Source: an uncultured Flavobacteriaceae bacterium (GTDB lineage: Bacteria; Bacteroidota; Bacteroidia; Flavobacteriales; Flavobacteriaceae). Taken from it: a DNA stretch of 64,000 nucleotides. The first letter of the stretch is position 1. Each line of letters begins with the position of its first letter. The notes under the pieces were generated by a model, which was not told the DNA's origin, did no database searches, and saw only the letters and a program-made list of their open reading frames with translations. Shown here one piece after another: positions 8,271-57,095 of the stretch. The DNA lies in assembly GCA_905479065.1 (NCBI GenBank), contig CAJQLB010000027.1:1-64000 (forward strand), given 5' to 3'. Position numbers and translations under genes: made by a program.

Positions 8271-10621
8271 TAGCGAATAACCATTAATTTTAAAACTTTT
8301 GTTTCAAATGTATCTAGGTCTGATAACATGATTAGATATACTCCAGAAGCTACTTGATTGTTTCCAAGATTTTTTCCATTCCAATAAGCAGTTCCCCCAT
8401 CAATTTCTAAATTATACCCTCTGTATCTCAAATTAGTTCTTGATTCGGCTTCAGCAACTAAATTTCCTTCAATATCAGTAATTTTAATATTTACATTATC
8501 ACTAATATCCTTAATTTTTATTTTATCATTCAAGGTGTCAAATTGGGGCCTAACTGGATTTGGATAAACAAATGCGGCCGCCAATTCATCCTGAGTCTCT
8601 GACCCTCCGGCGTTGAAAGAAACCAATCCTCTGTCAGATCCAAAATAAATCACTCCACTATTTCCATCAAGAGCGATTTCGTTGATATTATTTGATGGCA
8701 AAGGCGAATTGTTTTTTGTGAAATGAAATATAGTTTCTTGTCCATTTGACGAAAAATAAAAAACTCCAGCACCAATGGTAGCAACCCATTTGTTATTTGA
8801 TCCGTCTACTAAAATATCAGAGATAAATTGTTGTTCTAAAAGTTCTTTAGGGATTCCATCTTCCAAAATAATAATAGCACTTGTGCTCACTGTTTCCTCT
8901 TCAAAGAAATTTGAAGTGTTGTACAAAACACGCAATCCTTTAAGTGTTCCAATCCATAATTGATTTTGCTTGTCTATCGCTAATGACCTGATATAAGTTG
9001 AAGGTAAGTTACTAGATTCTTGTTCAAAAATATTTTTTAAAGAAGCGCTTCCTCCATTCTCGTTAAATCCTATGAGTCCTAGATTATAACCACCTATCCA
9101 TTTTGTATTATTAGCATCAATAACCACATCACTATAGCCAAATTCTGTAGTTAAAGGGTTTGGTAATAACTCGGAAAAACTATATTTCACCCATTGTCCA
9201 GACGCAGGGTCATAAGATTTTAGTGGCCGCTCAACTCGTCCTGTTAGGGTCCATAATTTGCCTTCTCGATCAAAATTAGAACCCGTTAGACGAATACTAT
9301 TGACATTTGGTGCCCCAGGCACTATCAAAGACTCTAAGCCACTATTTGATTGATTGAATAAATTTATGATTTCATTATTATCAATCTCTAAAAGGCCATC
9401 TCCAAAAGAACTAATAAACACTTGCTCAGGAGAAAATGGATTAATGGATATCTTATTTAAACTTCGTGCGTTATATTGTAAACTATCATATGGAATATTA
9501 AACCATTCATCTTTAAGATGACTAACTCCATATCTTTTATTTTCAGGAAAATACGTTAATGAATAACTGCCGTATGTGCACCAAACATTACCATAGCCTG
9601 CCGACACTGAAAATATATTATTTCTTAATGGTCCATCTGGATGAATCTCAGTAAATACATTTTGGCCATTAGAAGCAGACGTCTTTAATAATCCAAAATC
9701 TGTAGTCCCAAGATAAATTCCCTCCATGGTAGTAATAGCAGTTGTAAGAAGGGTATGATACTCTTCATTTAAGCTTAAGGTGTTTTCAGAATTAAAATTC
9801 TCGTCATAAATAAAAACACTGTCTGAAAGTACGATAACTAAATTATCATTCGAAATTTTGACATCCACAGGCAATGAAGGATAGGAAAACAACTCTGTAA
9901 TTGAAGTTTCTAATACTTCATAAATTATATTATTATTTCGAACGGTGAATACTTTCCCTTGTAATTCGGTTATATAATTATAAGTGCCATCAACTAATTG
10001 ATTCCATTCTTGATAATTAATTAGGTTTCCACTTTCGAGTAACCCCTTCTTAATACCATTAGAGTCGCCACAGGCAGCATAAATATAATCACCAGATATA
10101 GCGGTTTCATTTACAATTATTTGAGAACCTGCACTGCCAATAAAATAAGTATCCCCAAATTCCAGACGCTCTAAATTATAAACTGAAATACCATAATCGG
10201 TAGCTATATAAATAACATTATTATTCTCATTAAAATGATTGATTGACTTACTATTTGGTGGTATTGTTACTTTTTGAAGAATATCTACCACTGAAATTAC
10301 ACTCTGATCTGTCTCATTAAAAATTTCGATTAAACCGTTATCATATCCTATCACTAGTAATCCATACGCCTCGCTAAAATGTATGGTTGATATCAATTCG
10401 CCCGATAAACCGTCAACAGTAGTAATTGTTTCCAATTCATTTGTTTGAAAATCATAGATAAAAACAGCATTCTCTGAGGCTGCAAAAACCCTATCATTCC
10501 CTTGTACAATATCTTTGATATTGAGATACGAAAAATGTCCTTCCCAAAGTGTCGAGTAATCTTGAGCATGTATGGTTAAGACAAAAAAACTGCATAAAAT
10601 AAAAAGATATGTATTTCTCAT
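8270..10621 (-). CDS. porZ: PorZ-like two-beta-propeller protein of the T9SS attachment complex
   Basis: 783 residues: signal peptide (about 1-19, ending HAQ), propeller blades throughout about 20-680 with recurrent regulator-propeller motifs such as KWIGGYNLGLIGF and NQLWIGTLKGLRVL, and a C-terminal sorting-type domain (about 690-783, opening YPNPVRP). Size and order match PorZ, which in Porphyromonas is a surface component of the PorU-V-Q-Z attachment complex that hands A-LPS to the sortase. The position just upstream of recO is, to my knowledge, common in flavobacteria. Alternative: another two-component-regulator-propeller protein without a T9SS role. A near-consensus promoter lies just upstream (10636-10664). 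Confidence 0.78.
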   Translation of the reverse strand: MRNTYLFILCSFFVLTIHAQDYSTLWEGHFSYLNIKDIVQGNDRVFAASENAVFIYDFQTNELETITTVDGLSGELISTIHFSEAYGLLVIGYDNGLIEIFNETDQSVISVVDILQKVTIPPNSKSINHFNENNNVIYIATDYGISVYNLERLEFGDTYFIGSAGSQIIVNETAISGDYIYAACGDSNGIKKGLLESGNLINYQEWNQLVDGTYNYITELQGKVFTVRNNNIIYEVLETSITELFSYPSLPVDVKISNDNLVIVLSDSVFIYDENFNSENTLSLNEEYHTLLTTAITTMEGIYLGTTDFGLLKTSASNGQNVFTEIHPDGPLRNNIFSVSAGYGNVWCTYGSYSLTYFPENKRYGVSHLKDEWFNIPYDSLQYNARSLNKISINPFSPEQVFISSFGDGLLEIDNNEIINLFNQSNSGLESLIVPGAPNVNSIRLTGSNFDREGKLWTLTGRVERPLKSYDPASGQWVKYSFSELLPNPLTTEFGYSDVVIDANNTKWIGGYNLGLIGFNENGGSASLKNIFEQESSNLPSTYIRSLAIDKQNQLWIGTLKGLRVLYNTSNFFEEETVSTSAIIILEDGIPKELLEQQFISDILVDGSNNKWVATIGAGVFYFSSNGQETIFHFTKNNSPLPSNNINEIALDGNSGVIYFGSDRGLVSFNAGGSETQDELAAAFVYPNPVRPQFDTLNDKIKIKDISDNVNIKITDIEGNLVAEAESRTNLRYRGYNLEIDGGTAYWNGKNLGNNQVASGVYLIMLSDLDTFETKVLKLMVIR

Positions 10622-10635
10622 TTTCTAATTTCGTT

Positions 10636-10664
10636 CAAATATATTTATTAGTAACGATTTACAA
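10636..10664 (-). promoter_or_regulatory. Promoter of porZ-recO-TonB receptor unit
   Basis: On the minus strand TTG (10664-10662) is followed by 18 bp and TATATTTG (10643-10636), close to the Bacteroidetes consensus TTG-N19-21-TAnnTTTG. It sits 15 bp before the porZ ATG, which implies a very short leader. Confidence 0.55.
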
Positions 10665-54137: not shown

Positions 54138-56036
54138 ATGAGTGACGCTCTTAAACACGAATGTGGCATTGCTTTTATAAGGCTTTTAAAACCTCTCAGT
54201 TACTACAAAAATAAATATGGCACGGCCTTTTATGGTGTGAATAAAATGTATCTGATGATGGAAAAACAGCACAATCGTGGTCAAGACGGTGCTGGCTTTG
54301 CAAGTATTAAACTTGATACTGCTCCAGGAGAACGTTATATAAGTCGTGTTCGCTCTGTTGCTCAACAACCTATACAAGACATCTTTGCACAAATTAATGA
54401 ACGTATTAACAAGGAATTTCTTGAACATCCAGAATACACCTCTAATGTTGACTTACAGAAAAAACACATCCCATATATTGGTGAGTTACTTCTTGGTCAT
54501 GTTCGTTACGGAACATTTGGTAAAAACAGTGTAGAAAGTGTTCATCCTTTTTTGAGACAAAATAATTGGATGCACCGAAATTTAATTCTTGCTGGCAACT
54601 TTAATATGACTAACGTTAAGGAATTATTTGAGAACATTGTTGAACTTGGACAACATCCAAAAGAATATACTGACACCATCACTATTATGGAAAAAATAGG
54701 CCATTTTCTAGATGATGCGGTCAGTAAAATTTACAAAGATTTAAAGAAAGAAGGTTACAGCAAAAGAGAGTCTTCACCCCTTATTGCAGAACGATTAAAG
54801 GTTGCTAAAATTTTACGTAAAGCAGCAAAAAACTGGGATGGTGGTTATGCTATGGCTGGAATGATTGGTCATGGTGACTCATTTGTTCTAAGAGATCCTG
54901 CCGGAATAAGACCCACCTATTATTATAAAGACGATGAAATTGTCGTGGTTGCTTCAGAACGACCGGTTATTCAAACCGTATTTAATGTTGCCTTTGATGA
55001 CGTAAAAGAATTAGACCCAGGTCATGCAATAATTACAAAAAAATCAGGTCAGGTTTCTATCAAACGAATATTACGTCCTTTAGAAAGAAAAGCTTGCTCA
55101 TTTGAACGTATTTATTTTTCAAGAGGTTCTGATGCAGAAATTTACAAAGAGAGAAAATTACTCGGAAAATTGATTATGCCTAAAGTCTTAAAAAGTATTG
55201 ACTATGACATAATGAATTCTGTATTTTCCTTTATTCCAAATACTGCTGAAACATCCTTCTTTGGCATGATCGAAACGGTTGAGGATTTTTTGAATAAGAA
55301 AAAAACAGAAGCAATCTTAAAAGGAAAAAGATCTTTGTCTCCAGAAAAAGTCACAGAAGTCCTTTCACAAAGACCAAGAATTGAAAAGATTGCCATTAAA
55401 GATGTGAAACTTCGAACTTTCATAACTGAAGATAGCAGTCGAGATGACTTGGTGGCCCATGTCTATGACATCACTTATGGTGTTATAAAACCTACTGATA
55501 ATTTGGTGATCATTGATGACAGTATTGTAAGAGGAACTACATTAAAAATGAGTATTCTAAAAATGCTTGACCGCTTAAATCCGAAAAAAATAATAGTTGT
55601 TTCATCGGCACCACAAATTCGATATCCAGATTGTTACGGTATTGATATGGCAAATTTAGAAAGTTTGGTTGCCTTTCGAGCTGCTTTAGCATTGCTAAAG
55701 GATGTAGGTAACTATGGTATCGTTGACAATGTTTATAAAAAGTGTAAGGCACAAATAAATCTAGTTGACTCGGAAGTTCAAAACTTTGTGAAAGAATTAT
55801 ATGAACCATTTACTGATGATGAAATTTCAGATAAAATCGCCGTACTTTTAAGTAATGAAACTATAAAAGCAGAAGTAAAAATTATCTTCCAAACTGTTTC
55901 AAATCTGCACAAGGCGTGTCCAAAAAATTTAGGAGACTGGTATTTTACAGGCGACTATCCAACCTCCGGAGGGAATCGAGTTGTAAACCGCGCATTTATC
56001 AATTTTTACGAAGGAAACAAAGAGCGCGCATATTAA
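54138..56036 (+). CDS. Amidophosphoribosyltransferase-like (long PurF-type) enzyme
   Basis: 632 residues, longer than the usual ~500 of PurF. An N-terminal glutamine amidotransferase: Cys at residue 9 (KHECGIAF), RGQDGAGF, GHVRYGTFG, AGNFNMTN and RDPAGIRP; then a type I phosphoribosyltransferase with the PRPP loop NLVIIDDSIVRGTTL and IRYPDCYGID. The motifs differ from canonical PurF (RGQESAG, HNGNL), and an insertion lies between domains. If it works like PurF it makes phosphoribosylamine from PRPP and glutamine; the 8-residue leader before Cys would need removal. A second, canonical purF is possible elsewhere. Confidence 0.8.
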   Translation: MSDALKHECGIAFIRLLKPLSYYKNKYGTAFYGVNKMYLMMEKQHNRGQDGAGFASIKLDTAPGERYISRVRSVAQQPIQDIFAQINERINKEFLEHPEYTSNVDLQKKHIPYIGELLLGHVRYGTFGKNSVESVHPFLRQNNWMHRNLILAGNFNMTNVKELFENIVELGQHPKEYTDTITIMEKIGHFLDDAVSKIYKDLKKEGYSKRESSPLIAERLKVAKILRKAAKNWDGGYAMAGMIGHGDSFVLRDPAGIRPTYYYKDDEIVVVASERPVIQTVFNVAFDDVKELDPGHAIITKKSGQVSIKRILRPLERKACSFERIYFSRGSDAEIYKERKLLGKLIMPKVLKSIDYDIMNSVFSFIPNTAETSFFGMIETVEDFLNKKKTEAILKGKRSLSPEKVTEVLSQRPRIEKIAIKDVKLRTFITEDSSRDDLVAHVYDITYGVIKPTDNLVIIDDSIVRGTTLKMSILKMLDRLNPKKIIVVSSAPQIRYPDCYGIDMANLESLVAFRAALALLKDVGNYGIVDNVYKKCKAQINLVDSEVQNFVKELYEPFTDDEISDKIAVLLSNETIKAEVKIIFQTVSNLHKACPKNLGDWYFTGDYPTSGGNRVVNRAFINFYEGNKERAY

Positions 56037-56137
56037 CGAAATTATTAGGATTTCATCATTTAATCTATGAAATGAGTCTTTTAAACTAAAAAAGATGCAG
56101 TTCATCTAATATTTATTCTCTTCTTTTAAAATAAATA

Positions 56138-56145
56138 TACTTTAG
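56138..56145 (+). promoter_or_regulatory. -7 box of small RNA copy 1
   Basis: TACTTTAG, one mismatch from TAnnTTTG, 3 bp before the start of the repeated unit. It lies at exactly the same offset (248 bp) as the box of copy 2. Confidence 0.4.
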
Positions 56146-56148
56146 TGT

Positions 56149-56222
56149 CACCATAACATAAGTAGGTTAAGTTCATGGTAGATTTGGGGCAAAAAAAGGT
56201 GAACATCTGTTCGCCTTTTTTT
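56149..56222 (+). ncRNA. Candidate structured small RNA, copy 1
   Basis: 74 nt nearly identical to 56397-56468. 5' stem: ACCATAAC (56150-56157) pairs with GTT-ATGGT (56171-56179) leaving C56174 bulged; loop of 13 nt. Linker with TTTGGGGC and A7, then a terminator hairpin GGTGAACA/TGTTCGCC and T7. It lies 112 bp after the PurF-like stop, so it could also be the 3' end of that mRNA, but the own -7 box and the second copy favour an independent RNA. Confidence 0.65.
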
Positions 56223-56385
56223 ATGTACTAAACTTTGTCTCAATAATTTAGTTCATTTTCTCATAATTAATATGTACTCAATTTTCGACTTCTTTTCTAA
56301 ATTAATAGCAAGATGATGATTTCTCTGTTAGACTAATATATGGGCATTTTATCTAATAAATTTAATATTTAAGTCTCTACTCCAT

Positions 56386-56393
56386 TATATTTG
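56386..56393 (+). promoter_or_regulatory. -7 box of small RNA copy 2
   Basis: TATATTTG, an exact TAnnTTTG match, 3 bp before the repeated unit. Confidence 0.5.
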
Positions 56394-56396
56394 AAT

Positions 56397-56468
56397 CACC
56401 ATAACATAAGTAGGTTAAGTTTATGGTAGATTTGGGGCAAAAAAGGTGAACATCTGTTCACCTTTTTT
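56397..56468 (+). ncRNA. Candidate structured small RNA, copy 2
   Basis: 72 nt. Differs from copy 1 by C to T at the bulged stem position (56422), one A less in the A run, G to A in the terminator stem (56460; U-G becomes U-A, pairing kept) and one T less in the tail. The same two-stem fold is possible. Its terminator also faces the sodA gene on the minus strand and may serve it. No homologous unit is visible elsewhere in this window. Confidence 0.65.
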
Positions 56469-56486: not shown

Positions 56487-57095
56487 TTATTTCAATGATT
56501 CATAACGACGCTCTACTTCGTTCCAATTAATCACTTTGAAAAAAGCTTCAATATAATCAGGGCGTCTATTTTGATAGTTGAGGTAATAGGCGTGTTCCCA
56601 AACATCTAAACCCATTATAGGCGTTCCTCCACAAGAAACACCCGGCATTAATGGGTTGTCTTGATTTGGTGTAGAACAGACCTCTACTTTTCCTCCTTTG
56701 TGTACACACAACCAAGCCCAACCAGAGCCGAACTGAGTAGCGGCTGCTTTGCTAAAAACAGCCTTAAAATTATCAACGGTATCATACGCATCAATGATTG
56801 CATCCTTCAAAGCCCCAGAAAGGTAACCTTTATCTTCTGGGTTCATAATTTCCCAAAACAAGCTGTGATTGTAAAACCCACCACCATTATTTCTCACGCC
56901 AGAATTATTCATATCAAGGTTCGTTAGTAGTTCATTGATTGATTTACCTTCTAGATCCGTTCCCTCAATTGCAGCATTTAATTTAGCTGTGTACCCATTG
57001 TGATGTTTTGAATAATGTATTTCCATTGTTCTTGCATCAATGTGAGGTTCTAAAGCATCGTATGCGAAATTTAATTTTGGTAATTCAAAAGCCAT
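56487..57095 (-). CDS. Fe/Mn superoxide dismutase
   Basis: 202 residues. Metal ligands: [14 protein letters not shown] (first His), [11 protein letters not shown] (second His), and [19 protein letters not shown] (Asp and His). It dismutates superoxide in the cytoplasm. Iron versus manganese preference cannot be called by eye. A -7 box lies upstream at 57125-57132, and downstream is the terminator of small RNA copy 2. Confidence 0.95.

Follow-up and report, generated by a model that had tools for sequence, protein, structure and literature searches.

The window analyzed here, a 64,000-nucleotide stretch of DNA from an uncultured Flavobacteriaceae bacterium, carries two near-identical units of about 73 nt on the forward strand, offset by 248 bp. 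Unit 1 (56149-56222) and its sibling, unit 2 (56397-56468), were delimited by sequence, fold, core match and unit search, and each consists of a 5′ hairpin, a G-rich linker and an intrinsic terminator. Upstream of the pair, the ORF list contains a forward-strand gene (54138-56036) whose Pfam hits are glutamine amidotransferase domains and which we take to be purF. Downstream lies a convergent Fe/Mn superoxide dismutase gene (sodA; 56487-57095, reverse strand), identified from the ORF list and a domain match. The twin units, their spacing and their position next to superoxide dismutase and a purine gene had been noted in a first-pass annotation made from the sequence alone, and were all borne out.

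In each unit, a near-invariant 5′ part (56150-56190 in unit 1 and 56398-56438 in unit 2, both on the forward strand) was marked by family alignment and duplex predictions as the predicted mRNA-pairing region. The intrinsic terminators follow on the same strand at 56191-56222 (A-tract, stem-loop and T-tract) and 56439-56468, as judged from sequence and from stem covariation in the family. A 43-nt core containing one Y occurred twice in the window and never in shuffles. Reading both sequences reproduced the four differences described earlier between unit 1 and unit 2: C/T at the bulge, A7/A6, G/A and T7/T6. The G/A difference sits in the 3′ arm of the terminator, where U·G becomes U-A. By themselves, these four differences say little about structural selection.

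Folding of the whole units was better than expected by chance, with none of 200 shuffles as good for either unit (z = -3.8 and -4.1), owing mostly to the terminator. The 5′ hairpin alone was unremarkable (z = -1.95 and -1.54; 10 and 16 of 200 shuffles as good). A simple terminator scan detected no terminator in the units, presumably owing to pairing between the T-run and the A-run. Since the terminator of unit 2 is symmetric, it may double as the terminator of sodA, which ends at 56487 on the opposite strand. Neither unit is covered by an ORF of 40 aa or more. We also considered the RNA itself as coding and rejected this, as the frame opened by the core's ATG varies with clade and with the length of the A-tract (by eye). 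A search of plasmid and phage records with the sRNA gave no match.

The first-pass annotation had placed a -7 box 3 bp upstream of each unit, and such boxes are indeed found on the forward strand at 56138-56145 (TACTTTAG, unit 1) and 56386-56393 (TATATTTG, unit 2), by sequence and by a scan of family upstream regions. In 171 of 242 such regions, a TAnnTTnN box at one fixed offset was the only match of this kind. Its statement that sequence outside the units is not conserved needed correction, because related elements that recur family-wide lie further upstream: GCAGTTCATCTAATA at 56097-56111, which with a degenerate half-site forms the unit 1 element (56079-56111), and GCATTTTATCTAATA at 56344-56358, which forms the unit 2 element (56326-56358) in the same way, both on the forward strand. 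The degenerate half-site of both ends in CTAA, 20 bp upstream (by eye).

A known RNA motif had been left open pending an Rfam scan. When the scan was run, neither the window against Rfam 15 nor eight related loci gave any family at gathering score. The best sub-threshold match of the window was STnc40 (RF02057; 28.8 bits against a gathering score of 45), which mainly covers the terminator (by eye), and the Bacteroidetes family FopS (RF04319) reached 20.6 bits against 56. These sub-threshold matches look terminator-driven. The family was not described in the literature that we searched on the core sequence, flavobacterial sRNAs, tandem arrays, LytTR and Bacteroidetes type I toxin-antitoxin systems, a search that covered main texts and few subscription papers.

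Distribution and conservation of the sRNA family

By DNA search, 29 of 60 genomes, that of the window included, had matches; the sole match outside Flavobacteriaceae in this set (genome G046) was a terminator only. One unit search, whose matches include both window units and the extra copies of genomes G008 and G018, covered 77 sources, a part of all loci. After six units without a long T-run had been dropped, we aligned 68 sequences (the two window units and 66 picked from 110 selected) and built a covariance model, which detected the sRNA in 121 of 149 Flavobacteriaceae genomes, one per genus. In the wider class, 8 of 198 genomes matched; four of these are inside Flavobacteriaceae and four, outside it, were weak, and the two of the latter that we read were terminators. 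Scanning GTDB genomes for exact copies of a 23-nt core returned at least 118 stretches, and the 80 titles listed among these matches were flavobacteria or unclassified Bacteroidota.

The 118 loci listed hold 245 units (with up to three substitutions), all on one strand within each stretch. Copy number ranged from one to six (54, 26, 20, 12, 5 and 1 loci, respectively), the 54 single copies being counted within the stretch taken. Spacing between units was 180-260 bp in 108 of 127 cases. purF and/or sodA adjoin the sRNA at 113 of the 118 loci, with a purF-homologous ORF upstream in 98 and a sodA-homologous ORF downstream in 90. Genome G008 has two further copies on a contig other than that of the main array (L162:1969-2039 and 10593-10663, reverse strand), in which GGGT replaces GGGGC, and G018 has a divergent copy (L163:3372-3449, reverse strand).

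Among 134 distinct aligned rows, changes on both sides of the stem were seen in 12 of 13 terminator pairs, and in 2 of 11 pairs of the 5′ stem, where covariation is weak and one of the two covarying pairs depends on the single divergent copy L163. The structural selection proposed in the first-pass annotation thus holds for the terminator and only weakly for the 5′ stem; homologs do keep this stem (98.7% of cells paired). The 5′ part of about 41 nt is nearly invariant across the family, presumably because it pairs with mRNA; near-invariance of the 5′ stem fits target pairing better than structural selection. The accompanying proposal, that the units are paralogous trans-acting RNAs, gained support from the spread of the family, from the lack of an Rfam match at gathering score and from a predicted unlinked mRNA partner, described below.

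A small-ORF mRNA as predicted partner

The predicted partner lies at loci mostly downstream of scoB, a CoA-transferase gene, where a promoter-like sequence is followed by at least one stretch with complementarity to the sRNA and then mostly by a conserved small ORF. A profile search found this ORF in 90 of 149 Flavobacteriaceae genomes at E ≤ 0.01. The weakest match, in G153, has an internal stop and is not among the 89 small-ORF loci that were fetched. In 77 of these, scoB precedes the small ORF on the same strand, and no scoB was present in the fetched flank of the remaining 12. In 87 of the 89 the ORF encodes 26-47 residues, ending near KKxFML; the other two, with a start choice giving fewer than 25 aa, were left out of peptide and codon analysis, and peptide L245 was left out of the peptide alignment. 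The small ORF was found in 90 of 121 genomes bearing the sRNA and in none of 28 without it (Fisher's exact test, P = 3.6e-14, ignoring phylogeny). In 31 of the 121, including the window's own genome, it was not detected.

Third codon positions hold 48% of the differences in the last 18 codons, whereas the leader, used as control, is flat (32-35%), indicating coding selection on the small ORF. Searches of the peptides gave no Pfam hit for three and no NCBIfam hit for four. Net charge is +4 at the median, ranging from -3 to 8, and the C-terminal helix is amphipathic by calculation (median moment 0.40). Over the last 18 residues, mean hydrophobicity is low (median 0.23), compared with 0.68 for an 18-residue stretch of TisB.

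Pairing was predicted with RNAduplex, which leaves internal structure and accessibility out of account, between the sRNA part of each genome and its own small-ORF mRNA from -140 to +60. Six of the 89 loci had no parsed sRNA and were left out, giving 83 genomes. The predicted duplexes had a mean z of -6.2; in 68 of 83 genomes none of 60 dinucleotide-shuffled mRNAs was as good, and in 77 of 83 none of 30 shuffled sRNAs was. The duplex is predicted to span the start codon (ATG) in 64 of 83 genomes, with many duplexes covering about -30 to +4. Exact antisense stretches at two or more separate positions were present in 46 of the 83 mRNAs, and 16 had no exact stretch of 9 nt.

The pairing part of the sRNA comprises the hairpin loop AUAAGUAGGUUAA and the linker GAUUUGGGGC. 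AAGUAGG and GAUUUGGGG in the sRNA and CUUAUG and CCCAAAUC in the small-ORF leader are candidate pairing segments. Sites often extend into the first codons: in some genomes, NLPEQPT is written AAT CTA CCT GAA CAA CCT ACT, antisense to GGTAGATT and AGTAGGTT (by eye).

The sRNAs fall into clade types with GGTAGATTT or GGTAAGATTT (TAG and AAG). When types were swapped, the own type was preferred in 46 of 53 TAG genomes and 19 of 23 AAG genomes. Random windows themselves lean to AAG (2147 versus 790 of 3000), so that only the TAG half of the swap counts as evidence of co-evolution; the AAG half was set aside as uninformative. Energies below the 1% level of the null were reached in 53 of 53 TAG genomes, 6 of 7 genomes with both types and 7 of 23 AAG genomes, the AAG type pairing more weakly than the TAG type. 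The null windows were imperfectly masked and include a few very low energies (to -43.1), and only 8 of 53 TAG targets fall below this minimum.

In the window's own genome, two further partial unit matches are found on contig C21. We dropped them as extra sRNA copies, since the promoter-like sequence lies on the opposite strand; they mark a target locus with two antisense sites (L006:1763-1816). The better site is predicted to form a duplex of -48.4 kcal/mol with unit 1. No intact small ORF was found in this genome by profile search and reading of the locus, and it is intact in G002 and G003, two genomes of the same genus. The target locus of the window's genome may be a sponge, or may be decaying. 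The leader of G003 differs from that of G002 by an insertion of about 91 nt between the two target sites (L156, about 2105-2195 of the reverse complement), which holds the inverted repeat AATGCCCA/TGGGCATT (by eye).

A shared upstream element and a model of regulation

The element found upstream of the window units is common to sRNA and small-ORF promoter regions. With up to two mismatches to TGYATTTCATCGA, it was present in 132 of 242 sRNA upstream regions (9.3 in mononucleotide shuffles) and in 72 of 89 small-ORF upstream regions (6.2 in such shuffles). Before the sRNA it lies 53-56 or 73-75 nt from the unit in 105 of the 132, that is, at two places about 20 bp apart. Of 21 loci read, 12 showed a second, degenerate copy (up to four mismatches) at a distance of 20-22 bp, a count that carries no significance value. 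In its sequence layout, the shared element resembles LytTR direct repeats. LytTR regulators are reported to bind direct repeats, mostly separated by 12 bp, upstream of the promoter (PMC6193735); the copies here are 20-22 bp apart from start to start, and the agreement concerns spacing and position only. An activator of the LytTR type acting at this element would be a guess.

In four genomes, the element with one mismatch allowed gave 40, 46, 42 and 34 matches, against 10, 21, 18 and 17 for the reversed control. Candidate genes behind it (L436, L440, L446, L449, L450 and L456 among the loci) were recorded; the products, named by eye, are secreted proteins, a CAP-like lipoprotein, an LRR protein and small unknown proteins. 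A first test of such genes against 111 ORF starts, in which two genes were not located, was mixed: several stood out, with energies down to -29.7 against a mean of -14.9, and L436 and L438 did not. Across 25 loci behind the element (30 less five sRNA arrays and small-ORF loci), complementarity to the sRNA had a median z of -1.85 downstream of the element versus +0.35 upstream (P = 3e-4), with no pairing signal (z above -1) in 10.

Exact sites were then counted in ten further genomes; they were present in nine, with 35 matches versus one in the control. Using the window-type sRNA throughout, 29 loci from these nine genomes (one of 30 left out) gave z = -1.72 downstream versus -0.02 upstream (P = 2e-5); 13 downstream versus 2 upstream regions fell below -2, and 10 of the 29 had no signal (z above -1). 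Thirty loci from sRNA-less genomes, tested with the same sRNA, gave -0.17 versus 0.24 and none below -2. The element with one mismatch is near background there (42 matches, five of them exact, versus 31 in the control), which makes these genomes a weak control for a regulon without the sRNA but hints at joint occurrence of the element and the sRNA. The regulon loci include orthologs and so are not independent, and one site was counted twice (L455 and L459). By these predictions, other mRNAs behind the element tend toward complementarity to the sRNA, though not all of them. Hfq was found in none of 10 genomes; the same search, run as a control, detected it in 5 of 14 named genomes, E. coli among them.

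The family, its synteny, the complementarity, the co-occurrence and the shared element are computed results. We consider it probable that the units are sibling trans-acting base-pairing sRNAs that block initiation at the small ORF and brake the regulon of their own activator. We infer that a shared activator would transcribe the sRNAs together with their targets, and that the 5′ part of about 41 nt would then pair with mRNA leaders, above all that of the small ORF usually found downstream of scoB. The duplex would cover the leader and the start codon; as the start codon is covered and further sites lie in the leader and first codons, blocked initiation of translation is likely. Because the element is shared and leaders of other genes behind it tend toward complementarity, the sRNA would act as a brake on the regulon that its own activator switches on, forming an incoherent feed-forward loop. 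Repression would work without Hfq.

A type I toxin-antitoxin-like arrangement, in which a membrane-active peptide is controlled by an unlinked sRNA antitoxin in one to six copies and regulon pairing is secondary, strikes us as improbable. It draws on the small size of the peptide (26-47 aa), its median charge, the calculated amphipathic C-terminal helix and KKxFML end, on the long predicted complementarity over the start codon, and on the fact that the small ORF was never found without the sRNA among 149 genomes. Yet hydrophobicity is low (0.23 versus 0.68 for the TisB stretch), the net charge varies between -3 and 8, 31 of 121 genomes keep the sRNA with no detected small ORF, and further complementary leaders are not expected of a dedicated antitoxin. 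Type I toxin and antitoxin genes are usually, though not universally, adjacent or overlapping; here the sRNA lies at purF-sodA and the small ORF at scoB loci, so no such adjacency was found. By prediction the sRNA is complementary to the small-ORF mRNA, as an antitoxin would be if the small ORF encoded a toxin. We grant similarly little weight to a dispersed version, with a cationic small protein silenced by an unlinked array of one to six sRNA copies, the co-activated regulon throttled and sites in the first codons. Reversed roles, in which a leader with repeated sites acts as a sponge and the mRNA mainly titrates the sRNAs, appear a little more doubtful still: the 46 of 83 mRNAs with at least two exact antisense sites apart from each other speak for titration, as does the window's own genome, whose locus has a broken coding part yet keeps two sites, but the peptide is under coding selection and is present in AAG-type genomes with weak sites.

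CsrB-type RNAs sequester an RNA-binding protein, and the near-invariant hairpin loop and the lack of detected Hfq would suit sequestration through the conserved hairpin with incidental mRNA complementarity; since complementarity goes far beyond shuffles of either partner and the sRNA co-occurs with the mRNA, we regard this as very unlikely. That the units have no function and arose when an intergenic palindrome or terminator was duplicated by chance is scarcely credible given an sRNA in 121 of the 149 genera sampled and purF and/or sodA beside 113 of 118 loci listed, even though the terminator scan was empty and the 5′ hairpin alone was not significant.

The preferred reading, sibling base-pairing sRNAs, has precedents. 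LhrC1-5, Qrr and OmrA/B are sibling sRNAs in tandem with their own promoters and terminators and with shared targets. Likewise, the present arrays contain two or more near-identical neighboring units, each with a terminator sequence and a promoter sequence of inferred function, and their predicted pairing to an unlinked target exceeds chance; unlike these systems, no Hfq was found here, and the complementarity to one small-ORF leader is very long. In the type I system IstR-1/TisB, an sRNA acts against the leader of a small-peptide mRNA, both being under related control. The present sRNA is likewise complementary to a small-peptide leader with related control predicted, whereas its target is unlinked, its copies number up to six and there are further candidate targets. 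Among Bacteroidota, FopS of Bacteroides (RF04319) are described as multicopy sRNAs with a single-stranded 5′ end, a conserved seed and a Rho-independent terminator that repress SusC-like transporters in trans (PMC11697453). By that description, our family is alike in copy number, terminator, conserved seed and (here predicted) trans repression, and differs in its tandem arrays at purF-sodA, its 5′ hairpin and its partner. Rfp18 of Flavobacterium psychrophilum is described as a trans-acting sRNA conserved beyond its species (PMC9723704), and by this description, compared at the level of text, it is a flavobacterial trans-acting sRNA like the one proposed here; the main text of that paper does not mention purF, sodA or superoxide.

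Flavobacteriaceae abound in both marine and fresh waters, yet to our knowledge targets are known for few of their sRNAs. In bacteria with no Hfq detected in 10 of 10 genomes, a conserved sRNA can now be linked to a specific predicted mRNA partner, and both a regulon and a shared activator are proposed as candidates. The target provides an example of predicted pairing sites that recur across leader and codons alike, and the purF-sodA locus lends itself to asking why the number of sRNA copies ranges from one to six.

The same element also precedes another conserved sRNA candidate, about 150 nt long, in the window's own genome (L460, about 1600-1755, contig C29) and at L447, L442, L480, L491, L484 and L467. 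At four loci searched it had no Rfam match at gathering score. Its layout is GTGTACTAAAATTTAG...TTAGTTCAATGGATTAATTAATTAATATTTGCATTATG..., then ACCC(C/T)AAATCTAC and a terminator-like hairpin. The ACCC(C/T)AAATCTAC stretch shows complementarity to the linker in the sRNA of the window, and the candidate is possibly a sponge or a partner RNA.
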